From the NCBI GenBank assembly GCA_009668925.1, contig SBEK01000102.1, positions 1-14,811 of the forward strand: DNA of 14,811 bases, given 5' to 3'. A program made the translations under genes and the position numbers. Numbering within the stretch: position 1 is the stretch's first letter; each line of letters opens with the position of its first letter. This DNA comes from Deltaproteobacteria bacterium (GTDB lineage: Bacteria > Desulfobacterota > Syntrophia > Syntrophales > Smithellaceae). Below, piece after piece: positions 1 to 14,747 of the stretch. Below the pieces are notes generated by a model, which had not been told where the DNA came from, searched no databases, and was given only the letters and a program-made list of their open reading frames with translations.

Positions 1-444
1 CGTCACGACGGGCAGCGAGGTGTCGGAACGCACCCTGACGCCCCGAAACACGCCCTCAGCCGTGACCCTGATCAGCTTGAATTTCCCCCCTCCCTCCGCG
101 TTCTCCCCCCTTTCGCTGTTGTTCGCCCCGGCCCGCCCCGTGATGATGCCCTTAACCGAGCTCTGCAAATTGGCGCAAGCGACGGCGGCGGTCGGGGCGG
201 CAACCATTTTGTGCTCCTCATTCTTCCGCGTCTGCTTGAGATCGGCAATCTTTTTTTCCCAGGCGGGTTTGCGCGCAATCAATGCCGAGTATTTTGCCAG
301 AAGCTTCAGCTTCGCATCCTGCTCGTCACCGAGTTCCTGCGCCTGCCGATAAATGTCGGCAATGCCATACTGGTAGACGGCAAGAGCCGCCATCACGATG
401 ATCAGCGGAATGGATATCGCGAGGAGCTTACTTTTTCTTTTCAT
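1..444 (-). CDS. gspM: Type II secretion inner-membrane protein GspM (3' part missing)
   Basis: This gene starts with ATG at 444 and stays open to the left edge of the window, so only the first 148 residues are visible. GspM is a bitopic inner-membrane protein that pairs with GspL and forms part of the T2SS assembly platform. The visible part has a short basic cytoplasmic start (MKRKSK), one membrane segment at about residues 6-24, and then a charged helical, probably coiled-coil stretch at about 30-80. A Gly/Asn/Glu-rich linker near residues 103-118 precedes the start of a beta-rich periplasmic domain. The start lies 17 bases inside the end of gspL in another frame, which suggests translational coupling. 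Similarity to GspM is weak at sequence level, as is usual for this family. The call rests on the topology and on the position directly after gspL. The window does not show whether gspN, gspC or gspD follows. Confidence 0.85.
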   Translation of the reverse strand, partial: MKRKSKLLAISIPLIIVMAALAVYQYGIADIYRQAQELGDEQDAKLKLLAKYSALIARKPAWEKKIADLKQTRKNEEHKMVAAPTAAVACANLQSSVKGIITGRAGANNSERGENAEGGGKFKLIRVTAEGVFRGVRVRSDTSLPVVT

Positions 445-1978
445 AACTCATCTCCTTCTTCGGTTCCTTCTTTCCCGCCTCCTTCCTTTCGGGCTCTTTC
501 TTCTCCCCCGCATTTTTCAGTTCCATCTTGATGACGAACCGTTCGGTATTTTGCCGCGGATCACGAAACGTGGGCGACGAAAACTCGGCCTTTTGAAAAT
601 ACCTGGAGTTCTCCAGTTTGAGGATGATCTCGGTCGCCGATGTGGAATAGCCTTCGATTTCCGCAATTTTGTCGGTAATATGCAGACGGGTCAGCCAGGT
701 CTTCGGCGGTAATGCGGCCGTCATATCTTTTATGATGTTCATCGCCAGGTCGCTGTGCGTCCGGAAAGCGTTAATGGCTTGGATATCGTTTTCCAGCGCC
801 GCGGCTTCACTGTGCAGCGCCTCGGCCTTTCTCACCTGCGGCCTGAGCGCCTGGATTTGCTGATCCAGCGCGTCGAGAGTCTGCCGCTGCAAATAGACAG
901 GCGCGATGAAATAATATACAGCCGACGCCGCAATCATCACGAGCAAGACCGCGGACAAGAGCCAGGGCGTCCGGGGAGCGCCGTGATTATTTTTGGCAAG
1001 CAGGTTCACGGCATCCGGCCGGCTGCGCGCGGCATCCAGAGCGCCGCTTACGGCAACGGCCGACAGTTCCGCGGCCGGCTTGGGCAGGGTCGTTTTCAGG
1101 TCCTTATTCAAGTGGGAAACGGTCACGGTCCGAAAGGCCTCACGGATCCGGCCGTAATCTTTCTCATCCGCGTCTACGACAATCCTGGGCGGACTGCCGC
1201 TCTTCATGAGTTCATTCATCGCGTCGCCTGTCTGCCGGATGGCTGCGTCAGCCCCGTCCGGGTCTCCCGGCATTGCGCCCCCGGTGAAGGGCTGGGCGAT
1301 CAGGCCCTGCACCAGCGACCCGCCTTCATAAGCGTCACCCCGGAGCGACAGGAACACCGCATTCGTATGGGGATAGGTTTGCCCGATGATAAATCGGATC
1401 AGAAAGACGTTCAGACTGATTTTATCAACCGAAATGCCTTTCCCTTTAAACGTTTCCAGACAGGCATTGATCTGATCAGCCCGGGCAACGGTCAAGAGGA
1501 TCCTGATATTCCGATCATCCTCGCCAACCGCAGTATAGTCATAGCAGGCATTGTCCCGGGACAGCGGCGTCAGCCGATCCAGTTCAAATTCGATGACTCG
1601 GGGCAGATCCTCTTTGGCGGCCAGCGGAAATTCGGCTTCGCGGACAATTACCCAGGAGCGCGGCCAGCCCAGGACAAACCGGGCATCGGTAATTTGGAAA
1701 TCCCGGACAAAGGCCGCTGCCGCTTGCGCCGCAAACTCGGGACTGACCGCCTGGCCTTGAGGCAGCGGGCAGCGCCTCACCCGGCGGATGTTGACCCGCC
1801 AGAGCATCTTTTCGACATAGGCCAGGCAGACGCCGTCGGCTTCGAACGATACGCAGACGATCTTCGCAAATGAAAACGCCGGGTCGGCCAGACTGAAGGA
1901 CAGGACCCGCCACAGCGCGCGGCCCGCCCGGTTAAGCGGCGGATAGATTTTATTGAAGGCGTTCTTGTAAGGCATCAT
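428..1978 (-). CDS. gspL: Type II secretion platform protein GspL
   Basis: GspL links the cytoplasmic ATPase GspE to the membrane platform and pairs with GspM in the periplasm. From the chosen start the protein has 516 residues. Residues 1 to about 320 form the cytoplasmic actin-like (PilM-like) domain, including the typical stretch around VIEFELDRLTPL. A single membrane segment follows at about 338-359, then a coiled-coil stretch at about 363-402, and then a small PilN/ferredoxin-like periplasmic domain at about 415-488. The last 28 residues are an unusual Lys/Glu-rich tail. I chose the ATG at 1978 because a GGAG lies about 10 bases upstream. The frame can be opened further to a TTG at 2020, but that would overlap gspK by 71 bases; the chosen start overlaps it by 29. 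The ATG at 1975 is also possible. Length and domain order fit GspL of T2SS rather than the separate PilM and PilN proteins of type IV pili. Confidence 0.93.
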   Translation of the reverse strand: MMPYKNAFNKIYPPLNRAGRALWRVLSFSLADPAFSFAKIVCVSFEADGVCLAYVEKMLWRVNIRRVRRCPLPQGQAVSPEFAAQAAAAFVRDFQITDARFVLGWPRSWVIVREAEFPLAAKEDLPRVIEFELDRLTPLSRDNACYDYTAVGEDDRNIRILLTVARADQINACLETFKGKGISVDKISLNVFLIRFIIGQTYPHTNAVFLSLRGDAYEGGSLVQGLIAQPFTGGAMPGDPDGADAAIRQTGDAMNELMKSGSPPRIVVDADEKDYGRIREAFRTVTVSHLNKDLKTTLPKPAAELSAVAVSGALDAARSRPDAVNLLAKNNHGAPRTPWLLSAVLLVMIAASAVYYFIAPVYLQRQTLDALDQQIQALRPQVRKAEALHSEAAALENDIQAINAFRTHSDLAMNIIKDMTAALPPKTWLTRLHITDKIAEIEGYSTSATEIILKLENSRYFQKAEFSSPTFRDPRQNTERFVIKMELKNAGEKKEPERKEAGKKEPKKEMSYEKKK

Positions 1979-2993
1979 CTCTTGGAATCTCCATATGCGC
2001 GGGACTTTGATAAAAAGCAATCCGGCACCGGTCCATCCCTCCCGCTACCAGGACCGCTTTGAGCGGATAGCCGCCGGTTCTCTCCGGCTTGAAGCCGATG
2101 ACTTCAACGGAGTAGACGTTGGAATCAGTTGTCGTGACATATTGCGTCATGGAGGCAAAATTGGCTGCCGATACCAGAGATTGCAGGTCCGGCCCGTCTT
2201 TTCTGGTGTTGTCCGATCTTCGGTACGTAATGACTGCCTGGACGATTTCATCCGTCATCCCCGGTATGGCTGCCAGCACTTCCGGCCGCGCCGCCTGGAT
2301 ATTGATTCTGTCCGCGGAGGTGTACACCGTCAAAAACCGGATCAGACCCGGTTTTTCTCCTGTTCCGTAGAGGATATCCTGGGTCATGCCGCGCACCAGC
2401 AGCAGCTCTTCCAGGTTATCAAAATTGGCGTCCCTGGCTTTATAAGGATTGGGCAGGCCCATATAGTAGTTGCTTTCCGCACCGTGGAGCCGGTGCAAGT
2501 CATCCGTATCCTTCCAGTCCAGCACGGAATCAACAATGGTGTCGGCTTGCTCTTTTTCCACCCCCAGATTCACGAGCAGGTTATTCAAAATGATCCCCGA
2601 TGCGTCGGTCAGCAGATTGATGTTGATCTTTCCCCCCTCATCGGTCAGGGCCAGCCGGTAACGCCCGTCTTCCAGAGCGCCTTCGCGGGTGGTTCCATCG
2701 ATCGGGATGACCGATCGGGCGTTATTTTCCGCTGCGGTCGTCTTATTGGCGTTGCGGTAAAGGATCTCCAGCATCGCCCGCTCAAGCCCCGCTTCCGCCA
2801 GATATTTATTTTCCAGCTGATCCCGGAAAGTTAAAGTCGAAAACGCCTCCGTTCTGACCGTCACGGAGAAGGCGAGCGTCATCACGATCAGCAGCATCAT
2901 GATCCACAGCACAATGATCAGCATAATCCCTCTTTCCCTTCCGGCGACGGCTATTCCCGAAGTTCTATTTATCTTTTGTTCAATCTCGTTCAT
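1950..2993 (-). CDS. gspK: Minor pseudopilin GspK (tip of the T2SS pseudopilus)
   Basis: GspK caps the T2SS pseudopilus together with GspI and GspJ and is the largest minor pseudopilin; 347 residues is a normal length. The leader has an RERG|IMLIIVLW processing site with cleavage expected after Gly22. The mature protein lacks the Glu at position +5 found in other pseudopilins, which is a known feature of GspK because it sits at the tip. After the hydrophobic helix come the large helical insert and hallmarks such as GKININLL (about residue 120), the DLHRLHGAESNYYMGLPNPY stretch, an NLEELLLVRGM element and a second SADRINIQAARPEVLAAIPGM element. The start is an ATG with only a weak TGGTGA ribosome-binding site. 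It lies 25 bases after the gspJ stop, the only real gap within the operon. The gene end overlaps the start of gspL by about 29 bases. Confidence 0.95.
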   Translation of the reverse strand: MNEIEQKINRTSGIAVAGRERGIMLIIVLWIMMLLIVMTLAFSVTVRTEAFSTLTFRDQLENKYLAEAGLERAMLEILYRNANKTTAAENNARSVIPIDGTTREGALEDGRYRLALTDEGGKININLLTDASGIILNNLLVNLGVEKEQADTIVDSVLDWKDTDDLHRLHGAESNYYMGLPNPYKARDANFDNLEELLLVRGMTQDILYGTGEKPGLIRFLTVYTSADRINIQAARPEVLAAIPGMTDEIVQAVITYRRSDNTRKDGPDLQSLVSAANFASMTQYVTTTDSNVYSVEVIGFKPERTGGYPLKAVLVAGGMDRCRIAFYQSPAHMEIPRDDALQERLQ

Positions 2994-3018
2994 CAGGCGT
3001 TCACCATTTGCGCCCCGG

Positions 3019-3642
3019 TTACCTGGTCACCACAGGTTTCGCTGTCACAGCCGCCGCGGCCGACATCGCTTGCGTCATGATCCGCGCCGTTAAGACCCTG
3101 TCGCTTTCCCCGCGGGTAAAATGGATCTGCAGCTTTTGCGGCATACCGGGGGCATCCTTCGGCCACTCATCAACCCACCGCCCCTCCCCGGCGGCCTCCT
3201 CATAATAATACTCAAACCGGATCGAATCGAAGTGGGTCGCAAGCGACTTTTCCTGCCTCACGCCCGTTCCGATCAGCTCTTCTTCAATGTGAAAAATGCA
3301 TTTCTGGCGACCGGCGGCTTCAATGCGATACGTCACCAGGCAGTTGCCTTTTGTTCCGCGCCACAGCGAATAATTGCTGGGAAAGGTCACTTTGTCCTTC
3401 ACACCGGCAAACCGGTTCTTCGTCTCGCCCTGTTCGACCGCAGCGCTGAAAAAAGCCGACTGGATCTGGGATTCGATAAGCGAAAAGATCACCTTCTTTC
3501 GTTCCAGAGCGTTGATCTTCTTCTCGCCTGTCTCCGATGTCCGGCAGGCCGAAGACAAGGCACCGCCCATGATGCCGATCATCATAGCCAGCATCGTCAC
3601 GGCCATGAGCAGTTCAATCAGTGTAAAGCCTTGCCTGCTCAA
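3019..3642 (-). CDS. gspJ: Minor pseudopilin GspJ
   Basis: GspJ is a minor pseudopilin that forms the GspI-J-K tip complex of the T2SS pseudopilus. The 207-residue protein has a very short leader, MSRQG, followed by FTLIELLMAVTML. Cleavage is therefore expected after Gly5, with Glu at mature position +5. The C-terminal part has the GspJ-type strand pattern, including RWVDEWPKD and LQIHFTRG near residues 155-180. The start codon is TTG: its last two bases are the first two of the TGA stop of gspI, giving the string TTGA. It is supported by a strong GGGGAGGGG ribosome-binding site about 8 bases upstream, inside the last codons of gspI, and by the exact position of the processing site. No ATG would preserve the leader. 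Confidence 0.94.
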   Translation of the reverse strand: MSRQGFTLIELLMAVTMLAMMIGIMGGALSSACRTSETGEKKINALERKKVIFSLIESQIQSAFFSAAVEQGETKNRFAGVKDKVTFPSNYSLWRGTKGNCLVTYRIEAAGRQKCIFHIEEELIGTGVRQEKSLATHFDSIRFEYYYEEAAGEGRWVDEWPKDAPGMPQKLQIHFTRGESDRVLTARIMTQAMSAAAAVTAKPVVTR

Positions 3643-4085
3643 TGGGCAGCCCCTCCCCGGACCGTATCTGTGAGAGTGCCGCCGAGAACATCGGCTCTGG
3701 AAGACATTCTGGACGTCTTAAGCGACGCCGCCCGAATGTATTGCCGTCCGGCCGCCCTGGCCTTGACCGTGATCTGCAAGAGCCTCACCGGCAGGAATTC
3801 CGACCGTTCCTTTTCGATCTCCTGAACCGCGATCTCATAGACATAACCGTCCTGGTCAGTCTCGGTCCAGGTCTTCTCCGCGAATCTTTCAAGCTCCAGC
3901 ACACCGCGCATTTTGGCGTTGGCCCTCGTCAGGAGTTCGGCGCATTCATCGGATTTGGCCAAATTGCGCAGATTGGCGGATGACAATTCCATCAGCGATA
4001 CGGCGACAAGGCCAATCAACACCAGGGCAATCATGATTTCCATGAGCGTAAATCCCTTTTGCCCCGGCCCGTCGGATTTAATCAT
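3639..4085 (-). CDS. gspI: Minor pseudopilin GspI
   Basis: GspI is a minor pseudopilin of the T2SS tip complex and is thought to nucleate it with GspJ and GspK. From the ATG at 4085 the product has 148 residues. The leader MIKSDGPGQKG is followed by FTLMEIMIALVLIGLVAVSL, so cleavage is expected after Gly11 with Glu at mature +5. The mature part is short and ends in a beta-strand domain typical of GspI (residues about 60-120). I chose this ATG because it overlaps the last codons of gspH in the string ATGATTAA and has an AGGA about 9 bases upstream. Longer forms would start at an ATG at 4106 or a TTG at 4112 and would add only seven to nine leader residues. The stop codon overlaps the TTG start of gspJ. 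Confidence 0.94.
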   Translation of the reverse strand: MIKSDGPGQKGFTLMEIMIALVLIGLVAVSLMELSSANLRNLAKSDECAELLTRANAKMRGVLELERFAEKTWTETDQDGYVYEIAVQEIEKERSEFLPVRLLQITVKARAAGRQYIRAASLKTSRMSSRADVLGGTLTDTVRGGAAH

Positions 4086-4566
4086 GGCGTTTATCCTGCT
4101 CGTCATCGGCAATAACCGCGGTTAAAATGGGATCGGCCACAATCCGGATGATGCGATCGCCTTGAATCAGATGGATCCGGCCCCAGGTGTTGGTGCCCGT
4201 TGCATCGTAGTAAAGACTGTATTGACCTTTGCGAACCGGACCGGTATTCGCCTCGGTTCCGTCAATGGCCAGACGCATCTCATCCGGGATCGCTTTCCCC
4301 GTCCGGCCTTTGATGCCGTATTTTCCGGTGTCCAGATCGAATGTCACGACTTGCCGCTCCTGGGTGGAGGCAGCCAGAGTTCTGGCGTACTTTATCGTTG
4401 AGACAATTTCCCGGGCTTGCGCTCTTTGCTTGGCTTTCGGCAGGGTGCCCGCAAAAAATACCGTGCTGATCCCCGCAATCAGCGACATCAGTATCAGCAC
4501 GACCAGAATTTCGATCAGCGTAAAACCCGGCGGCACCAAAGGGTGATTTCTCTCTCTGTCGTTCAT
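4078..4566 (-). CDS. gspH: Minor pseudopilin GspH
   Basis: GspH is a minor pseudopilin thought to link the GspI-J-K tip to the GspG shaft. From the ATG at 4566 the protein has 162 residues. The leader ends in VPPG and is followed by FTLIEILVVLILMSLIAGIS, giving cleavage after Gly14 and Glu at +5. The first mature residues continue as an amphipathic helix ending near KYARTLAAS, which matches the usual GspH pattern in which a helix with a KARSLA-like motif precedes the beta domain. I preferred the ATG at 4566, with AGGA about 10 bases upstream. The alternative is a TTG at 4587 that overlaps the gspF stop (TTGA) but has no visible ribosome-binding site and adds seven residues. The gene ends 8 bases inside gspI. 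Confidence 0.92.
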   Translation of the reverse strand: MNDRERNHPLVPPGFTLIEILVVLILMSLIAGISTVFFAGTLPKAKQRAQAREIVSTIKYARTLAASTQERQVVTFDLDTGKYGIKGRTGKAIPDEMRLAIDGTEANTGPVRKGQYSLYYDATGTNTWGRIHLIQGDRIIRIVADPILTAVIADDEQDKRHD

Positions 4567-4583
4567 ACCGGCATCTATCCTGT

Positions 4584-5780
4584 TCAAAAAGGAATATCGG
4601 TGATGCTGAATATCGCCGTCAGCAGGGAGATGACGATGAACCCCACAATCAAGCCCATGGCGATGATCAGGGAAGGCTCCATGATGCTGATGAATCTCCT
4701 GATCGATATCTTCAGACTTTTTTCATAGGTGTCCGCTATTTTGATCAGCATGCCGTCGAGCCGGCCGGTTTCTTCACCCACTTGAATCATCGACATGGCC
4801 AGTTCCGGGAAGATACCGGCGTCGGACAGCGGTTTGGCGATGCCTTTGCCTTCCTTGATCTCCTTCGTCACCCGATCCAGCGACGATGACACGACGAAAT
4901 TGCCGATGATGTCTTTGGCGTTCTTTACCGCCTGCAAAAGGGGCACGCCGCTTTTCAATAAAGCACCCAGCGTCCGGCAGAAGCGCGCGGTCTCGAGCTT
5001 TAAAATCACATCGCCCAGTATCTTGAGTTTCATTTTGTCCCAGGTGTAACGCCCGGCGTCCGTCTTCAGATAACTCTTCAGGAAAACTGATCCGAAAACG
5101 ATACCAAGCCCAATGATCCACCAGGAGGCCAGAAGGAAATTGCTTAAGCCGATCAGTATCTGCGTGGAAAAAGGCAGCTTCGTCCCCATATCGGCAAAGA
5201 TATTGGTAAATTTGGGCAGGACAAATGTCACCAGAACCAGGATGGAAATCGCACCCGTCATGACCAGAATCACCGGATAAATCATCGCGGAGAAGATATG
5301 GTTTTTCAACTCCTCCGAGGATTCCAGAAATTCGATGAGCTTTTCCAGAACCATCTCCATGGCGCCGGAGGTTTCGCCGGCGCGAATCATATTCACGTAA
5401 AGAGGAGAGAAGACTTTGGGATGCCTGGCGAGGGCGTCGGAGAACGTGCCCCCTTCACGGATGGACTTGAGGACGGCAAAGATAACATCCTTCATCTTCT
5501 TGTTTTGAGTGATGCCAAGCAGGACGTTTAAACTGCGATCCAGCGGCAGACCGGCATTGATGAGCGTATACAGCTCCGTCGTAAATACCAGCAGCTCGCC
5601 TTTTGCCGATCGAAGTGTAAACGCGTCTTTTTGGCTTCCCGCCGGCACCTCTTTCATCCGCAACGGAATGACATTGGAATTTTTCAAAATAGATTCCGCT
5701 TCGTATTCGTTGCGGGCTTCGATCAAGCCTTCGGAAACACTCCCGTCCGGGCCGATCGAACGATGCGAAAAACTGGGCAT
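4584..5780 (-). CDS. gspF: Type II secretion inner-membrane platform protein GspF
   Basis: GspF is the polytopic inner-membrane protein at the base of the pseudopilus. It works with the ATPase GspE to extract and add pseudopilin subunits. The 398-residue protein has a short N-terminal domain and two T2SSF repeats. The repeats can be seen by comparing LINAGLPLDRSLNVLL (about 73-88) with LLKSGVPLLQAVKNAK (about 274-289), and MIRAGETSGAMEMVL (about 131-145) with MIQVGEETGRLDGML (about 331-345). Membrane segments lie at about 166-188, 209-233 and 369-391. The ATG shares one base with the gspE stop (TAATG) and has an AGGAG 5-6 bases upstream, a clear coupling signal. The family also includes PilC of type IV pili. 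The linked gspH-M genes decide for T2SS. Confidence 0.96.
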   Translation of the reverse strand: MPSFSHRSIGPDGSVSEGLIEARNEYEAESILKNSNVIPLRMKEVPAGSQKDAFTLRSAKGELLVFTTELYTLINAGLPLDRSLNVLLGITQNKKMKDVIFAVLKSIREGGTFSDALARHPKVFSPLYVNMIRAGETSGAMEMVLEKLIEFLESSEELKNHIFSAMIYPVILVMTGAISILVLVTFVLPKFTNIFADMGTKLPFSTQILIGLSNFLLASWWIIGLGIVFGSVFLKSYLKTDAGRYTWDKMKLKILGDVILKLETARFCRTLGALLKSGVPLLQAVKNAKDIIGNFVVSSSLDRVTKEIKEGKGIAKPLSDAGIFPELAMSMIQVGEETGRLDGMLIKIADTYEKSLKISIRRFISIMEPSLIIAMGLIVGFIVISLLTAIFSITDIPF

Positions 5781-7300
5781 TAGATCTCCTGCGTCGCTCT
5801 GAAGATTTCGTTCACCGTGGTATCGCCCGCTTTGGCTTTTGATAATCCGTCTTCCATCAGCGTGCGCATACCGCTCTTTCTGGCCGCCTCCCGGATTTGC
5901 CGGGCATCGGCATTCCGGATAATCAACTGATGCATGGAGCTGTCGATGGCAAATAGTTCAAATATCCCGGACCGCCCGTAAAATCCCGTTTGAGCGCATT
6001 TTTCGCAGCCCCTGCCTTTGTAAAGGGAGACGCTGTTGCCGGGAAATATATTTTGCGCCCGTTCTTCTTTCATGGCGTCATGATCGATCGTCCGGCACTC
6101 GGGGCAGATCACGCGGACAAGACGCTGCGCCAGTACGCCGCGGATCGTCGCGGCCAGAAGAAAATTAGGCACGCCGATATCCAGAAGACGCGTGATGGCC
6201 GTAGGGGCATCGTTCGTATGCAGGGTGGAAAACACCAGATGCCCCGTAAGCGCCGACTGAATGGCAATCTCCGCGGTTTCCAGATCGCGGATCTCGCCGA
6301 TCATGATAATATCCGGGTCCTGCCTCACGATGTGGCGCAGGATACTGGGAAAGTCCAAACCGATTTGCGGCATGACCTGTATTTGATTGATGCCTTTGAG
6401 GTGGTATTCAATCGGATCTTCCACCGTGATTATTTTTTTATCCGGCGAATTGATCTTGTCCAGCGCACCGTACAGCGTGGTCGTCTTGCCGCTGCCGGTG
6501 GGCCCCGTAACCAGAATAATGCCGTTGGAATTCTTGATGATTGTATTGAACGTTGCAAGCGTATCGCGGGGAAATCCCAACTGTTCCATGTCAATCTTGA
6601 TGCCCTTCTGGCCGAGCAGGCGCATCACCAGGCTTTCGCCATAGAGGACCGGAATGCTGGAGACGCGCACGTCAATTTCCGCCTGGCCGACTTTGAGCTT
6701 GATCCTTCCGTCCTGGGGCAGGCGCCGCTCCGCAATATTCAACTTGGCCATGATTTTGATGCGCGAGAAAATGGCGGCCTGGAGCTTTTTGGGGATGACC
6801 TCGATATCGTGCAGCACGCCGTCAATGCGATAGCGGACTTTGACTTCATCATCGAAGGGTTCGATGTGGATGTCACTGGCCCGGCTTTCCACGGCGCGGG
6901 TGATAATGATGTTAACGAGCTTGATCACCGGCGCCTCGGAGGCCAGGTCCTGAAGATGTCCGACGTCGTCCTCCTCTTCGCGTACGTAATGGATGGACTC
7001 ATCTTCAATGTTTTCGATGATCTTATTGATGTCCTGTGTTTCCTGAGCGTAAAATTTTTCCAGGTGCTCATCGATGACCTGGCTGTCGCCGGTATAGATT
7101 TCCAGGATATAAGGAACGGCCACGCGGATCGCTTCGATCGCGGCCTTATTATCCGGATCGGCCATGATGATTTTCAGCGTGTCCTGCTTGAACTCCAGCG
7201 GCACAATTCTGTTTTCGCGCAGAAAACGGACGGAGAGCGTTTCCATGACAAATGGAACCTTGGGGAAACTGTCCGCATCAAGATAAGGCACGTCCTGCAC
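5780..7300 (-). CDS. gspE: Type II secretion ATPase GspE
   Basis: GspE is the cytoplasmic hexameric ATPase that powers pseudopilus assembly while docked on GspL and GspF. The 506-residue protein has an N-terminal GspE/MshEN-like domain (about 15-100) followed by the nucleotide-binding core. Visible motifs are the Walker A GPTGSGKT at 266-273, the Asp box ITVEDPIEY at 291-299, the Walker B-type DPDIIMIGEIRDLE near 328-341, and the His box HLVFSTLHTNDA at 354-365. A tetracysteine zinc site is formed by Cys399, Cys402, Cys432 and Cys435. All catalytic motifs are intact. The start is GTG with a GGAAGGA ribosome-binding site about 9-10 bases upstream; no ATG lies upstream before an in-frame stop. 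PilB is the closest alternative, but gene order makes GspE far more likely. Confidence 0.97.
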   Translation of the reverse strand: MQDVPYLDADSFPKVPFVMETLSVRFLRENRIVPLEFKQDTLKIIMADPDNKAAIEAIRVAVPYILEIYTGDSQVIDEHLEKFYAQETQDINKIIENIEDESIHYVREEEDDVGHLQDLASEAPVIKLVNIIITRAVESRASDIHIEPFDDEVKVRYRIDGVLHDIEVIPKKLQAAIFSRIKIMAKLNIAERRLPQDGRIKLKVGQAEIDVRVSSIPVLYGESLVMRLLGQKGIKIDMEQLGFPRDTLATFNTIIKNSNGIILVTGPTGSGKTTTLYGALDKINSPDKKIITVEDPIEYHLKGINQIQVMPQIGLDFPSILRHIVRQDPDIIMIGEIRDLETAEIAIQSALTGHLVFSTLHTNDAPTAITRLLDIGVPNFLLAATIRGVLAQRLVRVICPECRTIDHDAMKEERAQNIFPGNSVSLYKGRGCEKCAQTGFYGRSGIFELFAIDSSMHQLIIRNADARQIREAARKSGMRTLMEDGLSKAKAGDTTVNEIFRATQEI

Positions 7301-7349
7301 CGTCGTTGATTCCTTCCCTGGTGATGCAATAAATGGGGGTGATTTGACT

Positions 7350-7373
7350 TTGAAATTATCACGAATATTTCAA
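7350..7373. promoter_or_regulatory. Inverted repeat upstream of gspE, possible operator
   Basis: TTGAAAT and ATTTCAA form a perfect 7-bp inverted repeat with a 10-bp spacer, about 50 bases upstream of the gspE start. Read toward gspE, the spacer and right arm contain TGATAAT, which resembles an extended -10 element, but no convincing -35 lies 16-18 bases before it. The site sits in an AT-rich stretch (about 7345-7395). It has the size of a dimeric regulator site. The regulator is unknown and the promoter assignment is a guess. Confidence 0.35.
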
Positions 7374-7486
7374 GTTTTCCATAATTTTTTCACTTTTGCC
7401 CGGATCTGGCGAATCTATTGTTGTTCTTTGGAGAAGATATCCGATCTGTGCACGATACCGGACCGCAATCCCCGACACCCACTTTC

Positions 7487-7501
7487 CCTGTTGACAACAG
7501 G
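7487..7501. promoter_or_regulatory. Perfect palindrome overlapping a TTGACA -35 box
   Basis: CCTGTTG-A-CAACAGG is a perfect 7-bp palindrome around a single A. The TTGACA of the putative gspG promoter (7491-7496) lies wholly inside it, an arrangement expected of a repressor operator. As RNA it could instead fold into a 6-bp stem with a 3-base loop, followed after CCCG by a run of T, so a weak terminator on the plus strand is the alternative reading. Confidence 0.35.
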
Positions 7502-7517
7502 CCCGTTTTTGTTTAGT
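7491..7517 (+). promoter_or_regulatory. Candidate sigma70-type promoter for gspG
   Basis: A perfect TTGACA at 7491-7496 is followed after 15 bases by TTTAGT (7512-7517), a four-of-six match to TATAAT. The spacing is short and the -10 weak, so the call is tentative. It would give a transcript with a leader of about 60 bases before the gspG start, and it overlaps the palindrome at 7487-7501. Confidence 0.3.
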
Positions 7518-7582
7518 TGAATTCATCGACCTCAGTCTTCCAGAAACATAAACCAATATGATGAAAATCAAGGATGATTTTT

Positions 7583-8017
7583 ATGAAGAACAGGCAATGT
7601 GATCAGCCCCGGATAAATCGAAAAGGGTTCACGCTCATCGAAATTCTGGTCGTCATGGTGATGATCGCTCTTCTGGCCTCTCTCGTCGGTCCGAAGCTCT
7701 TTCCTAAACTCGGCAAGGGAAAACAATCGGCGGCCAAGGCACAAATTTCGCTCATCGAACAGGCGCTGGATCAATTTCGACTGGATGTGGGCCGGTACCC
7801 CACAACCCAGGAAGGATTGAACGCCCTTGTCACAAATCCGGGCGCTCCCAAATGGGAAGGCAGTTATCTCAAGAAAGGACTGCCGGCAGACCCCTGGGGC
7901 ACAGCTTACCAGTATACGGCACCCGGCAGTCACGGCGAATTTGATTTACTCTCGTACGGAAGAGACGGCAAACCCGGCGGTGAAGGGGAAGATGCGGATG
8001 TCGTCAACTGGCAATAA
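7583..8017 (+). CDS. gspG: Major pseudopilin GspG
   Basis: GspG is the main subunit of the T2SS pseudopilus. From the ATG at 7583 it has 144 residues: a 15-residue leader ending in NRKG, then FTLIEILVVMVMIALLASLV. Cleavage is expected after Gly15, with Glu at mature +5. The mature 129 residues carry the family hallmarks GRYPTTQEGLNALV (about 55-68), LPADPWGTAYQY (85-96), and a C-terminal Asp/Glu-rich loop ending in EDADVVNW that matches the calcium-binding region of GspG. I chose this ATG because AAGGA (7570-7574) lies 8 bases upstream; the ATG at 7574 overlaps that ribosome-binding site. The gene is divergent from gspE instead of lying between gspF and gspH, so shaft-protein dosage can be set separately from the rest of the machine. 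It converges with the GT-C/TPR gene to its right. Confidence 0.97.
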   Translation: MKNRQCDQPRINRKGFTLIEILVVMVMIALLASLVGPKLFPKLGKGKQSAAKAQISLIEQALDQFRLDVGRYPTTQEGLNALVTNPGAPKWEGSYLKKGLPADPWGTAYQYTAPGSHGEFDLLSYGRDGKPGGEGEDADVVNWQ

Positions 8018-8082
8018 TCTTTCGCAACTTCCGTCCATACGGGATAAATTCAATAACTGCAATTAACGCAGGATCACTTAAA

Positions 8083-8096
8083 CGGGGTCTGCCCCG
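8083..8096 (-). terminator. Short GC-rich hairpin in a convergent gap, weak terminator
   Basis: CGGGG-TCTG-CCCCG forms a 5-bp GC stem with a 4-base loop between the converging gspG and GT-C/TPR gene ends. Read on the minus strand it is followed by only TTT, so it would be a weak terminator for the gene ending at 8136. The rest of the 118-bp gap (8018-8135) shows nothing I recognise. Confidence 0.35.
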
Positions 8097-8135
8097 CCGG
8101 TAACATCGACGCGGAACCTTTCCTGAGCGGTTCAA

Positions 8136-10217
8136 TCATCGGCAGTATCCCTTGCCGTTGGCCCACTGTAACGTTTTGCACGCTCCCAGTTCGCAGGCTT
8201 TTTTAGCATCACGACAGCCGCTCTGAAAATCGCCGCGCATCAGGTAGTAGTTCCCGCGGCTGTTGTAGGCGTCGGCATAATCCGGTTTCAGGCGGATGGC
8301 TTCATTGTAATCTTCAATTTCACGCTCGGGCCGACTGAGTTTGCCGTAAGCAATTCCCCGGTCGCCATAGGCTATATAATCATCCGGCTTCAAACGGATG
8401 GTCTGATTGTAGTCATCAACGGCCCGTTGATATTGACCCAGTTTGCCGTAGGCGAACCCTCTGTTGTAATAACCGTTGGCATCGCGCGGTTTCAGGACGA
8501 TGGCCCGGCTGGAGTGTTCGATGGCTTTCTGATACTGTCCAACCTTCAGATACGTGAACCCCAGGTTGATATAGGCCTCCGCAAAATTCGCTCTTAGACG
8601 GATGGCCGATTGGAAGTCTCCGATCGCCCGCTCGGGCTGCCCCAAATCATTGTATGCGATGCCCCGGTTGTAGTACGCGCCGGGATGCTTTGGGTCTAGT
8701 CGAATCGCCTGACTGTAATCATCAATCGCGCGTTGATACTGGCCAAGTTTCGCATAGGCCGCTCCCCGATTGTTGTAGAAAAAGATAAAATTAGGGCTCA
8801 GGCGGATGGCCTTATTGAAATATTCGATAGCCTCGGCGGTTCTTCCTTCGGCAAACAAAACGAGTCCGAAATTATTGTTCGGCCTGGCTTTGTTCGGAGA
8901 TTTTTCCAGGACATCAGCCCAGAAGGTATGCTCGTTTTTCCAGATCTTATTTCGTTGATACGTTAAGAAGGTATTTACGGCCGCGATGATGCAAAGAATC
9001 ACGATCGCAATCTTGAAATACCGGTCCTTGAAAAAATAGAAGGCAGCGCCGGTCAGCGCCAGAAAAAAACCGAAAGCCGGCAGATAGGTGCGGTGCTCGA
9101 AAATCACATTTTGAGAAATGGGCAAAAAGCTGGACTCCACGGATATCGTCAAGAAAAACCAGAATACTCCGAACGATATCAGCCGGTATTTCTTGAATAA
9201 CAAGACGCCCGCCGCCAGAATTCCGAGTAAGAATGAAAAACTTAAAAATGTTTTCAGCTCAAAGAAGCTCGATGCGATGGGATAATCATAATCAAAATTC
9301 TGGTAAATCGGCAGGATGAAAAGGCGAAGATAGGTGGAGAGGACGCTGAACTGGGTGAGTAAATACTCCTTCGCCGATATGGAATAGGCGTATCCCTGAA
9401 TCGGCGGTATCGTACCGAAGTGCTTTACGGAAACAATTTTCAAGGTCCAGAAAAGAAAGATGATGAATATCGCGCCCGCAACAATGAGGCTTTCGTCCTT
9501 GAACGACACCTTCCAAGGCGCCGCCTTCAGAAAACAATAATCGAAGAGAAGGATGGCGAAAGGCAGTGTAAAGACGATTTCCTTGGAAAGCATGCCCAGT
9601 ATGGCGCAGAGGACCGAACCGCTGAATAATAACCACGGGATCTTTCGCTGGCCCTGCCAGAGCCTGCCCTCGGCGAAGAGAATCACGGACAAAAGATAAA
9701 ACAGCGTCGCCAGCGAGGCAAAACGCTGGACAATGTATGTGACCGATTGTGTAGCCAGCGGATGGGTCACGAAAAGTAAACCGGTCAAAAAAGCCATCAC
9801 TGGCTTATGTCTGCTGATCTCGGTGTCCTTCATGACCGGGGTGGAGAGGATCAGCCAAGTCAGCCACCAGACCAGAAACGCATTGGTCAGGTGAATAATC
9901 AGGTTCACCAAATGGTATCCCCGGACCTCGAGGCCATGAAAATGGAAATTAAGAAAAAATGTCATTATGCCGATTGGGCGGTTCGGGAACAGACGAATCC
10001 AGTCGCCGAGGGTCGCCTGGCCTTCCGTGATGCTGCTGTGAAAAACGTTGCCGTCATCGAAATGGAATGAACAATCAAAGGAGTTGGAATAGGCGATAAT
10101 ACCGGCGATGAAGATAACTGCAATCAACAGAAGATTATATTTTTTGTCCATATACAGGGCATCCGCTGGAACAGAGGGCTTTTTCTTCAGAGGTGCGAAA
10201 ATCAATTTTGCTTTCAT
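8136..10217 (-). CDS. GT-C-like membrane protein with seven C-terminal TPRs (putative glycosyltransferase, 1)
   Basis: A 693-residue protein with a multi-spanning membrane half (about residues 28-420) and a TPR half. Motifs placed as in GT-C/TMTC-type transferases are: FHFDDGNVF with Asp54-Asp55 in the first extracytoplasmic loop; GYHLVNLIIHL (100-110); THPLATQSVTYIVQR (151-165); MLSKEIVFTLP (209-219); and EHRTYLPAFGF (374-384). Seven 34-residue TPRs fill residues 443-680. The last one and the tail carry four Cys (from GCRDAKKACELGAC and the final YCR). If the topology follows TMTC, the TPRs face the periplasm, where these Cys could form disulfides. The start is ATG with AGGA about 10 bases upstream. 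I infer a polyprenyl-sugar-dependent transferase or a related membrane function. The substrate is unknown and no enzyme activity can be read from the sequence. The gene is convergent with gspG and divergent from the next gene. Confidence 0.85.
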   Translation of the reverse strand: MKAKLIFAPLKKKPSVPADALYMDKKYNLLLIAVIFIAGIIAYSNSFDCSFHFDDGNVFHSSITEGQATLGDWIRLFPNRPIGIMTFFLNFHFHGLEVRGYHLVNLIIHLTNAFLVWWLTWLILSTPVMKDTEISRHKPVMAFLTGLLFVTHPLATQSVTYIVQRFASLATLFYLLSVILFAEGRLWQGQRKIPWLLFSGSVLCAILGMLSKEIVFTLPFAILLFDYCFLKAAPWKVSFKDESLIVAGAIFIIFLFWTLKIVSVKHFGTIPPIQGYAYSISAKEYLLTQFSVLSTYLRLFILPIYQNFDYDYPIASSFFELKTFLSFSFLLGILAAGVLLFKKYRLISFGVFWFFLTISVESSFLPISQNVIFEHRTYLPAFGFFLALTGAAFYFFKDRYFKIAIVILCIIAAVNTFLTYQRNKIWKNEHTFWADVLEKSPNKARPNNNFGLVLFAEGRTAEAIEYFNKAIRLSPNFIFFYNNRGAAYAKLGQYQRAIDDYSQAIRLDPKHPGAYYNRGIAYNDLGQPERAIGDFQSAIRLRANFAEAYINLGFTYLKVGQYQKAIEHSSRAIVLKPRDANGYYNRGFAYGKLGQYQRAVDDYNQTIRLKPDDYIAYGDRGIAYGKLSRPEREIEDYNEAIRLKPDYADAYNSRGNYYLMRGDFQSGCRDAKKACELGACKTLQWANGKGYCR
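8178..8891 (-). repeat. Seven tandem TPR units, about 102 bp each
   Basis: The 3' third of the gene consists of seven consecutive 102-bp units, each coding a 34-residue TPR with the pattern Y-x-N-R-G-x-A-Y-x-x-L-G-Q-Y-x-x-A-I-x-D-Y-x-x-A-I-R-L-x-P. Units two, three, five and six are the most alike; for example YNNRGAAYAKLGQYQRAIDD and YNRGFAYGKLGQYQRAVDD. Similarity is visible in the DNA too, so copy-number change by recombination is possible. Confidence 0.85.
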
Positions 10218-10396
10218 ATATCATCTTTCCTGAAAAATACCCAGTCCCCACCCGTTTAAAGATCATTTGCCGAGCCGCTTATTCTTCAGTCTTCAAATAT
10301 CCATCGTTAATTATTAAACAATCGGGAAACCGTTAAGAGGTCAGTTCGATCAAAAAATTATTGGACAAACCTCCCGTATTTCCAGTAATAAAATAC

Positions 10397-11989
10397 ATGC
10401 CTTTGAAAAAATATTTTCCGCATGTATTCATCATCCTGCTGGTCATGATCGTTTATTGGCCGTCGCTTTCGGGGGATTTTATCTTCGATGACAACGGTCT
10501 GATTAAGAACAATCCTTACGTAAAACAGCTGCACAGTGTTTCTTCTTATCTTGCGCAGGAAGACGGTATCACGGATAAAACAGACACCCCCGGCCATCTC
10601 CATACCGGCTATTACCGGCCGCTTCTGAACTTCTCCTATTATATTGATTACAAAATATGGGGGATGAAAGCATTCGGCTTCCGCTTGACCAATATCATTC
10701 TGCATCTCATCTGCTGCCTGCTGATTTTTCAACTATTGATTGCTTTGAAAATAGACAGAAACGCCGCTTTCCTGGGATCGCTCTTTTTTGCGCTTCACCC
10801 CACGGATACAGAATCTATTTCAATGATCGTCAGCCGCAATAATCTGCTCGTCACAATCTTTTCCCTGCTTTCTTTCATGCTTTACGTGAAAAGCCGGCAG
10901 GGACGATTGGTCTACCTGTTCACGTCCACCGTGTTTTTCGGTCTGGCTCTCTTATCCAAAGAAAACGCCCTTATGATGCTGCCGGTACTTTTCCTTTGGA
11001 ACAGATTTACGGTAACCGAGAATAAAGGGCTGGTTAAAGAAATTGGCGGTTATTTACCTTTTCTGTTTCTCGCGGCGGCTTACCTGATTCTGCGCTCGCA
11101 AGTGATCGGCGTCTTCACTTCTCCTATTCCATTGACGAATTTTATGACCCGCCTGTATTTCGTACCGTATATTATCGCATCTGATTTTCTTCTGATTTTT
11201 TTTCCTTTCGGTCTGCACAGCTTCTATGTGACATATCCCGGGTCGTACCTCGGGTATCAGGCGATCATCTCTTATATTTTCTTGCTGTCCATGGTGATCG
11301 CTCTGTGGAAATTGCGCAAGGAGAGGCTGCTGATTTTTTCCATCGCCGCATTCGTCGTCATCCTGTTTCCCGTTTTGAATCTCGTTCCTTTCGCCTCCCC
11401 ATCGATCGTTACCATGAGATGGCTGTATTTCCCGCTGGCCCTGCTTTCCGTTGGCATCGCTTATTCTATCCAGATACTGATCTCCCATGAAAGAATAAAA
11501 TTTGTCGGTTTATCGGTCCTGTCGATCCTCTTGTTGTATTTTGCCGTTTATACTTATACTTTGAATGGTACCCTATGGAAGAATCAGCGATCATTCCTGA
11601 ACATTGAGGTGCTTCAATTTCATAATGTGCTCTTCGCGGACGCACTGGCTGAAGCATTGCACAGTGAAAACAAATATCACGAGTCGGAAAAATTGTATTT
11701 AGCCTCCTTAAACGCCTTTCCGGACAAAGCAGACACCTACATTAACTATTCGGCTCTGTTGATTGATACCGGACGCCCTGAAGAAGCAAAAAAATACCTG
11801 AACCGCGCGCGGCCTCTGACTATGTCCACGTCTAAACGATGTGAATGGCTGAACAACATGGGTGTGGCCTGCGGACGCCTGAACCAGAAGCAATGCGCCC
11901 TGGAAAACCTGAGTTTGGCCGTGCAATATTGCCCCGGCAACTCCGGTTTTAAAGCCAACCTGGAAACCATCAAAGCATCCATTCCCTAG
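10397..11989 (+). CDS. GT-C-like membrane protein with short TPR tail (putative glycosyltransferase, 2)
   Basis: From the ATG at 10397 the protein has 530 residues. It shares the layout of its two larger neighbours: FIFDDNGLIKNNPYV with Asp31-Asp32 in the first extracytoplasmic loop; YYRPLLNFSYYID (72-84); RLTNIILHLICC (96-107); LHPTDTESISMIVSR (133-147); LLSKENALMMLP (185-196); and RWLYFPLALL (341-350). Membrane segments run from about residue 8 to 390. The soluble tail (about 408-520) is shorter, with about three degenerate TPRs and Cys residues at about 482, 492, 500 and 512. A TTG at 10361 would add 12 residues, but neither start has a clear ribosome-binding site, so the start is uncertain. 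It is the only one of the three on the plus strand. Function is inferred as an extracytoplasmic glycosyltransferase of unknown substrate. Confidence 0.82.
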   Translation: MPLKKYFPHVFIILLVMIVYWPSLSGDFIFDDNGLIKNNPYVKQLHSVSSYLAQEDGITDKTDTPGHLHTGYYRPLLNFSYYIDYKIWGMKAFGFRLTNIILHLICCLLIFQLLIALKIDRNAAFLGSLFFALHPTDTESISMIVSRNNLLVTIFSLLSFMLYVKSRQGRLVYLFTSTVFFGLALLSKENALMMLPVLFLWNRFTVTENKGLVKEIGGYLPFLFLAAAYLILRSQVIGVFTSPIPLTNFMTRLYFVPYIIASDFLLIFFPFGLHSFYVTYPGSYLGYQAIISYIFLLSMVIALWKLRKERLLIFSIAAFVVILFPVLNLVPFASPSIVTMRWLYFPLALLSVGIAYSIQILISHERIKFVGLSVLSILLLYFAVYTYTLNGTLWKNQRSFLNIEVLQFHNVLFADALAEALHSENKYHESEKLYLASLNAFPDKADTYINYSALLIDTGRPEEAKKYLNRARPLTMSTSKRCEWLNNMGVACGRLNQKQCALENLSLAVQYCPGNSGFKANLETIKASIP

Positions 11990-11997
11990 TTTTTTGC

Positions 11998-12025
11998 CGG
12001 ATTCGGTCTCGTTTCCCTGAATCCG
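11998..12025. repeat. Inverted repeat in the convergent gap
   Basis: CGGATTC and GAATCCG form a perfect 7-bp inverted repeat with a 14-base loop, starting 9 bases after the stop of the plus-strand gene. It has no T-run on its downstream side on either strand, so it may stabilise the transcript end rather than terminate it. Confidence 0.4.
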
Positions 12026-12101
12026 CAATTGATTCGCGCGGAAAGATTCTCGTCTGAATTGATACAGGGCTGAATTCCCGCACCTGCCGATAAACGGCAA
12101 G

Positions 12102-12141
12102 AAAGCTGCCCCAGTGAGAAAAGCGCAGCGACAGCTTTTTT
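12102..12141 (+). terminator. Intrinsic terminator of the second GT-C/TPR gene
   Basis: AAAGCTG (12102-12108) pairs with CAGCTTT (12132-12138), and the right arm runs into six T (12136-12141). The loop is long (23 bases). A smaller TGCCG-ATAAA-CGGCA hairpin lies just upstream at 12085-12099. It is placed in the gap between converging genes, where a plus-strand terminator is expected about 110 bases after the stop at 11989. On the minus strand the T-run after the hairpin is only three bases. Confidence 0.55.
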
Positions 12142-12167
12142 CCGCCGCACCGTCAGGGAATCCCGGG

Positions 12168-14249
12168 TTACGGCATGCTCCTCCGGAGCTTTCCGATTTC
12201 CTGCACCCTGCTCTGAGCATTGCGGTCTTCGGGGTTGATCAGTAGTATTTTTTGATACTGAGCGGACGCTTCCTCATATCGTTTCATTTGAAACAGCAAA
12301 TCAGCCAGGCCATGGAGCGCCTGAAGATGATTCGCATTGCTATTTAAGGCGCTCCGAAGGTCGCTTGCAGCGCTTTCATTCTTTCCGAGAGCGGCAAAAG
12401 ACAGCCCGCGGAAGAAATAAGAATCCGCGAACCGGGGCTTGATCTTCAATGCCTCCGTGAAATTGGCAATGGCGGGCAAATACTGCGCATGCATGTAAAA
12501 AACGACCCCCTTGTTAAAATAGGATTCCGCGTTTTTGCGATTGATGCTCAATGCACTCGTGAAATCGGCAAAGGCTTTTTCATACTGTCCCTGCATACGA
12601 TAAGCGACGCCCCTGTTATTAAAAGCATCCGCCATGGTGGAATCGATCTTCAGCGCTTCAGTGAAATCATAAACCGCCTTGTCAAAGGCGCCCAAAGACA
12701 AATACAAATTGCCCCGGTTGAAATACGCATCGGCATATTTCGGGTTGATGGAAATCAGTTTTGCATAGTCCGCAAGCGCCAGGTCATTTTGTCCGGTCGC
12801 CGCATAGGCATTCGCCCGATTGTTTAAAGCATCTCCGAAGTTACCGCTGATCTTCAATGCGGTATTGTAATCGTCAATGGCCTGCCGGTAACGGCCATGT
12901 TCGGCATGGCCCATTCCCCTGAAGTTATAGGCAAAAGCGTTTCTTTGATTTTCCTTAGTGCGGTTGATGCCGGAGAGGTCGTATTTTTTTAGCACATCGT
13001 CCCACAATAAAAAGTTGTCGCCCCACAACTGGCATCGCTGCCAGCTCAAAAACGAAAATACGGCAATGAGCAATATTGCCCCGATGCCAAGAAATGTTTT
13101 TGCCTGGGGAAGTCGGGAAACCTTGTCCGGAATACCCCAGGCCAGCATGATAAAGAGACCGATGATCGGGATATAGGTGTAACGGTCCGCTATCGCGGAC
13201 GGACCGACCTGGATTAAACCGATCACAGGAACCAGCGTTCCCAGGTACCAAAGCCACCCCACAATGAGATACGGATAGCGGCCGCTCTTGCGAAGAACCC
13301 AGAGGGTGAATAAGACCAGAATGCCGGCAGCGATGATCACCTGCCATACCGGCCAAAGGCCGGGATGAGGGTAATAAATTGACAGATTATCAGGCAATAA
13401 TGTTTTCCCGATATATCGGACGTAAGAAATAATGGCATTCCCGATACGTACGTTCAATGGAAAGGATTCCAGGGTCGGTAATGCGCCAAACTTCCCCTCT
13501 GCGAAAAACGTCACAAAACTGATGGGTATAACCAACAGGAAAAGCGGAACTTTTTCCCCGATGAGCCGCCCAATGGACGTTTTATTCGATATCCCGGCAC
13601 TCTTTGCAGCCTTATTGCCGGAGAATGGGAAAGATATCCGGGCCAGAGGCCAGTAATCCATGAGCAGCATCACAAACGGCAGGGTGACCAGCATCGGCTT
13701 CGACATTAGACCCAATAAGAAAGCGATCAGAACAAGCAGATACCGTTTTACTCCCGGTTGCTTTACATAGTAACCATAGGTACATAATGTGATCATGCCC
13801 CAGAAGGCGCTCAGGACATCCTTTCGTTCCCCTATCCAGGCAACGGATTCAACATGCAGGGGATGGAGAGCAAATAAAGCAGCCACAAACCCGCTTCTCC
13901 AGAAGGAACCGGTCATTTCCCGCAAAAAGGCAAAAAGCAGGAGACTGCTGACTATATGCAGCAAAAGATTCGTCAAATGGTAGCCACCCGCCCAAGCCCC
14001 ATAAATCTGTGCGTCCAGCATCAGAGATAGCCAGGTCAGGGGATGCCAGAATCCCGCGAACGTAGACGTTAAAGCCCACTTCAGATTCTCAATAGAGAGT
14101 CCGCCTAACACATGAGGGTTTTGTGTGACATAAACGCTGTCGTCAATGTTGGCGAATCCGAAGTGAAGCACCTGAGCATAAACCAGAAAGCTCAACCCTG
14201 TAACAGTGACAATCGCCGTTAATTTCTGCCAGGGTATATTTCTCGTCAT
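12168..14249 (-). CDS. GT-C-like membrane protein with seven C-terminal TPRs (putative glycosyltransferase, 3)
   Basis: From the ATG at 14249 the protein has 693 residues; GGAG lies about 7 bases upstream. A TTG start at 14264 would add five residues. Motifs in order are: FANIDDSVYVTQNPHV with Asp36-Asp37; FWHPLTWLSLMLDAQIYG (67-84); HLTNLLLHI (91-99); LHPLHVESVAWIGERKDVLS (128-147); GLMSKPMLVTLPFVMLLMDYW (180-200); and ADRYTYIPIIGL (354-365). Membrane segments fill residues 10 to about 405, and seven 34-residue TPRs fill residues 437-674. This variant, with SKP where its two neighbours have SKE, is a widespread uncharacterised bacterial group resembling eukaryotic TMTC O-mannosyltransferases. 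Its role here is inferred only. It lies directly downstream of the pilin gene on the same strand, but a terminator and a separate promoter lie between them, so the two are probably transcribed separately. Confidence 0.87.
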   Translation of the reverse strand: MTRNIPWQKLTAIVTVTGLSFLVYAQVLHFGFANIDDSVYVTQNPHVLGGLSIENLKWALTSTFAGFWHPLTWLSLMLDAQIYGAWAGGYHLTNLLLHIVSSLLLFAFLREMTGSFWRSGFVAALFALHPLHVESVAWIGERKDVLSAFWGMITLCTYGYYVKQPGVKRYLLVLIAFLLGLMSKPMLVTLPFVMLLMDYWPLARISFPFSGNKAAKSAGISNKTSIGRLIGEKVPLFLLVIPISFVTFFAEGKFGALPTLESFPLNVRIGNAIISYVRYIGKTLLPDNLSIYYPHPGLWPVWQVIIAAGILVLFTLWVLRKSGRYPYLIVGWLWYLGTLVPVIGLIQVGPSAIADRYTYIPIIGLFIMLAWGIPDKVSRLPQAKTFLGIGAILLIAVFSFLSWQRCQLWGDNFLLWDDVLKKYDLSGINRTKENQRNAFAYNFRGMGHAEHGRYRQAIDDYNTALKISGNFGDALNNRANAYAATGQNDLALADYAKLISINPKYADAYFNRGNLYLSLGAFDKAVYDFTEALKIDSTMADAFNNRGVAYRMQGQYEKAFADFTSALSINRKNAESYFNKGVVFYMHAQYLPAIANFTEALKIKPRFADSYFFRGLSFAALGKNESAASDLRSALNSNANHLQALHGLADLLFQMKRYEEASAQYQKILLINPEDRNAQSRVQEIGKLRRSMP
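12228..12941 (-). repeat. Seven tandem TPR units, about 102 bp each
   Basis: Seven uninterrupted 34-residue TPRs (protein residues 437-674) follow the membrane domain. Examples are YADAYFNRGNLYLSLGAFDK and MADAFNNRGVAYRMQGQYEK. They are more diverged from one another than the repeats of the gene ending at 8136. A 19-residue basic tail closes the protein. Confidence 0.8.
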
Positions 14250-14287
14250 CTTACACTCCAACAAAGGAAGCCCATTTAAATAAGACC

Positions 14288-14315
14288 ATCATACAAAAAA
14301 GAGACACATTGTAAA
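14288..14315 (-). promoter_or_regulatory. Sigma70-type promoter of the third GT-C/TPR gene
   Basis: Read on the minus strand, TTTACA (14315-14310) and TATGAT (14293-14288) are each five-of-six matches to the consensus -35 and -10 and are separated by 16 bases. Transcription would start near 14281, about 30 bases before the ATG at 14249. The promoter begins immediately after the pilin terminator. Confidence 0.6.
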
Positions 14316-14316: not shown

Positions 14317-14358
14317 CATAAAAAAGGAAGGCCGGGTAACATAATCCCGCCTTCCTTA
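14317..14358 (-). terminator. Strong intrinsic terminator of the pilin gene
   Basis: On the minus strand AAGGAAGG-CGGG pairs with CCCG-(G)-CCTTCCTT around a 9-base loop: 12 base pairs with one bulged base. The right arm is followed by a run of T (CCTTCCTTTTTTATG). It starts 24 bases after the pilin stop codon and is the best terminator in the window. Confidence 0.88.
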
Positions 14359-14381: not shown

Positions 14382-14747
14382 TTACGGAGTAATATTGCCG
14401 CCCGAACCAACCGTATACGTTGATGTGCCGGCCGCATGATATGCTGTAGCACCGATCATCGCCTGACCGGGCGCTGAGGCAAGCACGATATCATTCGATT
14501 TAATGTAGGTATCGGCCACAGTGCTTTCATCGCAATCGGTTGCCGTATGTGAGGCAAAATAAGCCTGACAGGCCGTGTAATAACTTCTCAATTCAGCCTT
14601 TGCTTTCGTGTTATATCCTTTCTGTCGGTACGAGGTGAACTGGGGGATGGCGATGGCCGCCAGCAGACCGATAATCGCTATTACGATCATCAGTTCGATC
14701 AGCGTGAACCCTCTTTTCCCTTTATTTTTTGAGAAATATTTAAACAT
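14382..14747 (-). CDS. pilA: Type IV pilin, PilA-like
   Basis: This 121-residue prepilin has a 13-residue basic leader ([13 protein letters not shown]), then [20 protein letters not shown], so cleavage by prepilin peptidase is expected after Gly13 with Glu at mature +5. The mature pilin has 108 residues. Its N-terminal part closely resembles the short pilins of Geobacter and Syntrophus, including [14 protein letters not shown]. Eleven Phe/Tyr residues are spread along the mature chain at 1, 24, 27, 32, 43, 44, 50, 51, 68, 90 and 98. Cys47 and Cys59 could form a disulfide. The ATG has a GAGGGAG ribosome-binding site 5 bases upstream. A terminator follows the gene, so it is probably a single-gene unit. 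Only 64 bases of upstream sequence are visible and I see no sigma54 promoter there. A T2SS pseudopilin is unlikely, because the family motifs and the C-terminal domain of GspG-K are absent. Confidence 0.92.

Follow-up and report, generated by a model that had tools for sequence, protein, structure and literature searches.

In Pseudomonas aeruginosa the accessory genes lying directly behind the major pilin gene pilA, with a terminator in between, include two unrelated pilin glycosyltransferases, TfpO and TfpW (excerpts of PMC11841053); the tfpO/pilO cassette (group I) specifies an O-oligosaccharyltransferase, and the tfpW cassette (group IV) an enzyme termed a GT-C arabinosyltransferase in a cited title (PMC12369383). 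In the sections of the literature consulted for comparison, the described pilin glycosyltransferases are of the TfpO, TfpM, PglS, PglL and TfpW kinds, and TfpO, TfpM and PglS are often encoded near their substrates (extract of a review, PMC12645811). A second described architecture is that of the animal O-mannosyltransferases TMTC1-4, in which a GT-C domain with 11 transmembrane (TM) helices is combined with extracytoplasmic tetratricopeptide repeats (TPRs). PMT, STT3 and ArnT are GT-C enzymes not known to carry a TPR tail. The TPR pilotins PilF and PilW, which share the TPR superhelix and the type IV pilus context with the proteins treated here, are small lipoproteins not known to have a GT-C domain. 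The present analysis concerns a contig of 14.8 kb (14,811 nt; SBEK01000102.1 of GCA_009668925.1), referred to in its full length as the window, whose named relatives in homologue searches are mostly Smithella/Syntrophaceae-type bacteria, and in particular three neighbouring genes, A, B and C, coding for GT-C proteins with TPRs, the last of which follows a pilA-like gene. Sugar is probably attached to the pilus by one or more of the three; by analogy with Pseudomonas it appears fairly likely that PilA and C form a pilin-accessory cassette, to which B and A may also belong, and that C O-glycosylates the pilin.

The features concerned are, in window coordinates:
8136-10217, minus strand: gene A, a GT-C and TPR protein of 693 amino acids (aa) with 11 modelled TM helices.
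10361-11989, plus strand: gene B, a GT-C (Pfam PMT_2/PMT) and short TPR protein of 542 aa, assigned from sequence only.
12168-14264, minus strand: gene C, a GT-C and TPR protein of 698 aa from a TTG start, directly downstream of the pilin gene.
14288-14315, minus strand: a weak promoter-like site, TTTACA-16-TATGAT, between the hairpin and C.
14324-14357, minus strand: an intrinsic-terminator-like hairpin and U run directly after the pilin gene (coordinates read off the predicted fold by eye).
14382-14747, minus strand: a PilA-like type IV pilin gene, 121 aa, C-terminus ...GNITP.

The preliminary description of this DNA, in which C was started from the alternative ATG at 14249 (693 aa), had taken A, B and C for three adjacent paralogues, diverged in sequence, each joining a GT-C domain at its N-terminus to TPRs at its C-terminus, and so they are. 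Their GT-C parts are homologous by themselves (A-B, 28% identity, E 2.6e-13; A-C, 23%, E 1.8e-16; B-C, 26%, E 4.1e-16); the domain search gives strong TPR matches for A and C but short ones for B, and B is the only one of the three to reach a Pfam GT-C model (PMT_2, 31.8 bits; PMT, 28.4 bits). Full-length queries at E <=0.001 matched at least 4810 of 7997 scored candidates for A, at least 7996 of 7996 for C and at least 654 of 7997 for B, counts which include TPR-driven matches, so that not every match is a GT-C relative; the existence of full-length relatives in public databases shows that the three are no chance pattern of open reading frames. Among the names under which the sources list these relatives are 'protein O-mannosyl-transferase', 'tetratricopeptide (TPR) repeat protein' and 'Tfp pilus assembly protein PilF'. 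The protein family is common, with at least 344 matches in the 119 genomes of the order, and B is its rarer member (5 of 51 genomes of the taxonomic family at E <=1e-30); a scan of genomes with single-protein queries gave no relatives, the alignment-based scan did, and a plasmid search in 'near' mode gave no match.

The linkage to pilin was surveyed with the window pilin as query, which found matches in 94 of the 119 genomes of the order. Of these 94, the first 60 genomes by rank were taken, each with its best pilin locus (order set), and from the phylum the first 40 newly introduced genomes of 82 (phylum set), genomes already met being skipped, among them some outside the 60 (G003, G004, G006, G030 and G063, among others). 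A GT-C/TPR gene follows the pilin gene on the same strand at 29 of the 60 order loci with a 60-bit cut and a distance of 1 kb, at 30 of 60 with a looser 40-bit cut and 1.1 kb, and at 13 of the 40 phylum loci. For the 100 loci together, such a gene within 1.1 kb is found downstream in 43 cases on the same strand and in 2 on the opposite one, and upstream in 0 and 1 cases, respectively; the linkage is therefore strong and directional, and since the family has about one match per megabase, adjacency to pilA exceeds chance. By best-model label, the first adjacent gene at the 43 loci is C-type in 32, A-type in 9 and B-type in 2. Adjacency is clustered on the tree yet has changed repeatedly: on a FastTree phylogeny of 149 domains the label 'pilA-adjacent' requires a minimum of 20 changes, 13 of them forced by starred branches, and label shuffles gave a mean of 34.8 changes with 0 of 500 as low as observed (rows from L001-L064 and L072-L084 were given the label 'other', the neighbourhood being checked for a pilin at L072 and L083 alone, and a few of these labels, such as that of L056, are wrong).

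A metagenome-assembled genome of Syntrophaceae (L002, on the same contig as L072) has A(-) B(+) C(-) PilA(-) in the order of the window, with PMT- and YfhO-type genes at one flank and PTPS, FolE2 and NAD-synthase genes at the opposite flank; the alternation of strands remarked on in the preliminary description thus recurs in one relative and is not general, G011 (L074) having the order C, B, C', PilA on a single strand. Four GT-C/TPR genes stand behind pilA in G108, and L093, L112, L113 and L123 carry tandem arrays of three or four directly behind it. In Desulfobulbus rhabdoformis DSM 8777 (L056) a pilin-like gene (9213-9803) is followed 152 bp on by a GT-C/TPR gene (9956-12013). In L193, L201 and L202 the pilin frames are very short (two end in ...QKYPY), presumably resembling the short Geobacter type, and the GT-C/TPR gene comes about 0.4-0.5 kb after.

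The stretch between pilA and C holds a hairpin of -17.8 kcal/mol followed by a U run; taken as a whole the stretch folds merely 1.5 standard deviations better than its shuffles (z-score -1.5), and a consensus scan did not list this hairpin. Hairpins of -10 kcal/mol or stronger followed by T were found after 34 of the 43 adjacent pilins and in 3 of 98 shuffled sequences, the shuffles keeping single-base content only. The promoter-like site before C matches at 10 of 12 positions, and such sites are no commoner than in shuffles. The locus is in these respects like the tfpO/tfpW cassettes, PilA preceding C with a terminator-like hairpin between them and the same adjacency recurring at 43 of 100 other pilA loci; it differs from them in that its enzymes are TPR-tailed and TMTC-like, often occur several in a row and belong to Desulfobacterota-type genomes. 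The likeness to TfpW is drawn from its published description. Pilin-accessory cassettes as such, with other glycosyltransferases, are already known; what would be new here is their equipment with TMTC-like, TPR-tailed GT-C enzymes. In the open-licence literature, at the level of titles and abstract openings, no tie of TMTC-like or GT-C/TPR proteins to pilins was found, TfpW aside, and the consulted part of PMC5174107 contains neither 'TPR', 'tetratricopeptide' nor 'glycosyl'.

The structure prediction proposed in the preliminary description bore out the GT-C assignment for A and C. Their AlphaFold models (predicted local distance difference test 88 for A and 90 for C) match STT3 over 329-346 residues, and A also matches Pmt4 and ArnT, with 8-11% identity in the structural alignments; these GT-C matches come from the second of two structure aligners alone, Foldseek against the PDB with C giving TPR and other helical-repeat chains and no GT-C among the 50 matches listed, and a viral fold library giving mainly TPR and other repeat proteins. 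On the models, then, the membrane domain of A and C has the GT-C fold common to PMT, STT3 and ArnT. Sequence searches of the PDB found nothing at E <=1 when the GT-C domain of B or that of C was the query, a single match at E 0.96, to a photosystem protein, with a 17-row profile, and with full-length A, among the 60 matches listed, matches in its TPR part only. In the models of A and C, 11 membrane helices were assigned by hand, and a single side of the membrane, presumably the periplasmic one, carries the TPRs together with the catalytic-type DD and the remaining conserved loops; the inside-positive balance of lysine plus arginine is 14 in and 5 out for A. An 11-TM GT-C domain followed by extracytoplasmic TPRs, the TMTC layout that had been suggested, is thus what the models of both proteins present.

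The motifs named in the preliminary description (DD, HPxxxxS, SKE/SKP and RTY/RYTY/RWLY) were recovered: DD in the first loop and HPxxxxS in all three proteins, SKE in A and B with SKP as its counterpart in C, and the EHRTY / MRWLY / DRYTY elements. The acidic pair in the first outer loop is present in A, B and C and in all 37 pilA-adjacent genes checked, 6 of the 43 being cut too short for residues and Pfam domains to be checked; the C residues DD, H103, P135, R147, K189 and Y364 are invariant in 40 of 40 rows, and among the 38 scanned, TPR_2 matched in 37 and PMT_2 in 11. Measured against the TMTC motif definitions (PMC7801869), the window proteins share the first-outer-loop DD, [RH]P, the lysine of motif M4 and the R..Y element in EL5. 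They differ from TMTC1-4 in being bacterial, in departing from the full M4 motif KE[TQ]xxT (KEIVFT in A, KENALM in B, KPMLVT in C), in lacking the DW of motif M5 in the EL4 stretch and in giving no match to TMTC_DUF1736 (PF08409) at E <=10 in the membrane parts of A, B and C, HMMER filters dropping most matches above 0.1; the same scan of relatives gave 0 of 51 genomes and shows little, 0 of 14 controls having given a signal.

The analogy with the Pseudomonas accessory genes behind pilA makes PilA the most likely substrate of C, the roles of A and B being less certain. C would be an inner-membrane GT-C glycosyltransferase whose sugar comes from a polyprenyl-phosphate donor at the periplasmic face; the catalytic-type Asp pair of its first outer loop would serve the transfer to Ser/Thr of the major pilin while the latter waits in the inner membrane, the acceptor being held by the periplasmic TPR superhelix. 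Owing to the terminator-like hairpin after pilA, C would be made in only a fraction of the amount of pilin, and A and B may add other sugars or serve other acceptors. More tentatively, and with rather less assurance than can be given to the cassette itself, the recurrence of the arrangement could reflect a widespread, so far undescribed class of pilin glycosylation in Desulfobacterota and their kin, in which a TMTC-like GT-C catalyst fused to a periplasmic TPR acceptor-reader is encoded downstream of the major pilin gene, in many cases within a tandem array that would let one pilin receive several glycans, as a bacterial counterpart of animal TMTC O-mannosylation. If so, many anaerobic syntrophic and sulfate-reducing bacteria would modify their pili with enzymes built like animal TMTCs, with a bearing on pilus function in their communities; a bacterial model for the selection of O-glycosylation acceptors by TPRs would be at hand, and a large family with only loose annotations, such as 'TPR repeat protein' or 'protein O-mannosyl-transferase', would gain a testable role.

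Several observations weigh against C as a pilin glycosyltransferase. The case is built from sequence, models and gene order, and the pilA loci were sampled in order of similarity to the pilin of the window. At 57 of the 100 pilA loci there is no adjacent GT-C/TPR gene, some of them being truncated where the contig stops (at least 1.5 kb lies downstream at 49 of the 60 order loci and at 36 of the 40 phylum loci); when 10 of the 30 non-adjacent order loci were scanned behind the pilin, PMT-type genes were found in L088 and L139, a GT2 gene in L099, and integrase, TPR, PilM or enzyme genes or no Pfam match in the rest, and before the pilin, PilS/PilR-type genes in L126 and a PilR-type regulator in L135. 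Hairpins also follow 36 of 55 non-adjacent pilA genes (2 of the 57 loci were too short), so that they mark major pilin genes in general. Pilins at adjacent loci do not differ clearly in Ser/Thr content from those at the other loci (p 0.10; 29 vs 23 pilins, L121 having no readable pilin); C-terminal [ST]P is commoner in adjacent than in other pilins (22 of 30 vs 8 of 23 and 6 of 13 vs 1 of 25, from 53 of 60 and 38 of 40 evaluable loci), an excess not separable from kinship (4 usable pairs). In C itself, the inside-positive balance is weak (8 in, 6 out), and a proline takes the place of the TMTC M4 glutamate.

Most members of the family, moreover, lie away from pilA, 30 adjacent genes at 60 loci standing against the at least 344 matches in the order, and with A alone as query a PilA-like gene was found at only 5 of 64 loci, many of them on short contigs and many from Bacteroidota. 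Taken by itself, A is only weakly linked to the pilin, its tie coming from the blocks of a few relatives and from the A-type first genes at 9 of the 43 adjacent loci. Among L008-L058, A-type relatives occur in Bacteroidota and Latescibacterota contigs, several in tandem pairs, with no pilin nearby, which indicates that the family has other contexts. Both the size of this dispersed family and the rarity of PilA at A-type loci, together with the YfhO- and PMT-type genes beside the L072 block, speak for GT-C enzymes with some other target (a lipid, O-antigen, exopolysaccharide or another secreted protein), the pilin neighbourhood being a shared surface-structure locus; this is an unlikely explanation, the adjacency being directional (43 of 100 downstream on the same strand against 0 upstream) and GT-C/TPR genes being absent from 20 of 20 gspG loci.

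An aid to pilus assembly, in which a TPR superhelix like that of PilF/PilW, or a pilin chaperone, would be held by a GT-C part serving as mere anchor, is also improbable: TPR structural matches of such size are generic, OGT, APC/C and designed TPRs ranking alike, and catalytic-type residues invariant in 40 of 40 rows are unexpected in an anchor.

On the other side of A lie genes of a type II secretion system (T2SS), which serve as context:
1-7300, minus strand: gspM (truncated at the edge of the window), L, K, J, I, H, F and E.
7574-8017, plus strand: gspG, whose linkage is not conserved.

That the GT-C/TPR proteins glycosylate T2SS pseudopilins or T2SS cargo, as the preliminary description also proposed, is very improbable. 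In its favour, gspG is 118 bp from A in the window; against it, GT-C/TPR genes are absent within 9 kb of gspG at 20 of 20 loci of the taxonomic family, as far as the contigs reach, at 5 further loci inspected (gspG matches being found in 40 genomes) and at 8 of 8 window-type T2SS loci in the stretches examined, two of them just 3.4 and 4.9 kb, while T2SS genes occur at 0 of 64 A-type loci (the gene caller can lose small genes). The T2SS acceptor, disfavoured on this linkage, was set aside, and of the linkages proposed for a neighbourhood survey that with pilA was found and that with gspG was not. Window-type GspE orthologues (64-85% identity) are present in 8 of the 51 family genomes; at four of the eight loci (L205, L207, L208 and L209) a single strand carries gspG, then a 682-737 aa gene that by position is a candidate GspD, then gspE, F and the genes up to L/M, in G013 the T2SS set is split over two places, and the other three loci are incomplete stretches. 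In the window (7300-8136) gspG is inverted with respect to gspE and the gene of about 700 aa is absent from its place, which points to a local rearrangement or an assembly join at the junction of the T2SS and A.

Of the six prepilin-type neighbours claimed for the flanks, all are coded (GspG, GspH-, GspI-, GspJ- and GspK-like pseudopilins and the type IV pilin); the prepilin domain TIGR02532 is above cut-off in five (GspG, GspH, GspI, GspJ and the pilin) and unmatched in GspK, and GspH, I, J and K score under the NCBIfam equivalog cut-offs. At the position of GspL (428-2020) a protein of 530 aa is encoded, with weak PilM-type NCBIfam matches only (Amuc_1101, 34.6 bits; PilM, 18.7 bits). The GC content is 54.8% on the T2SS side versus 46-49% in A-C.
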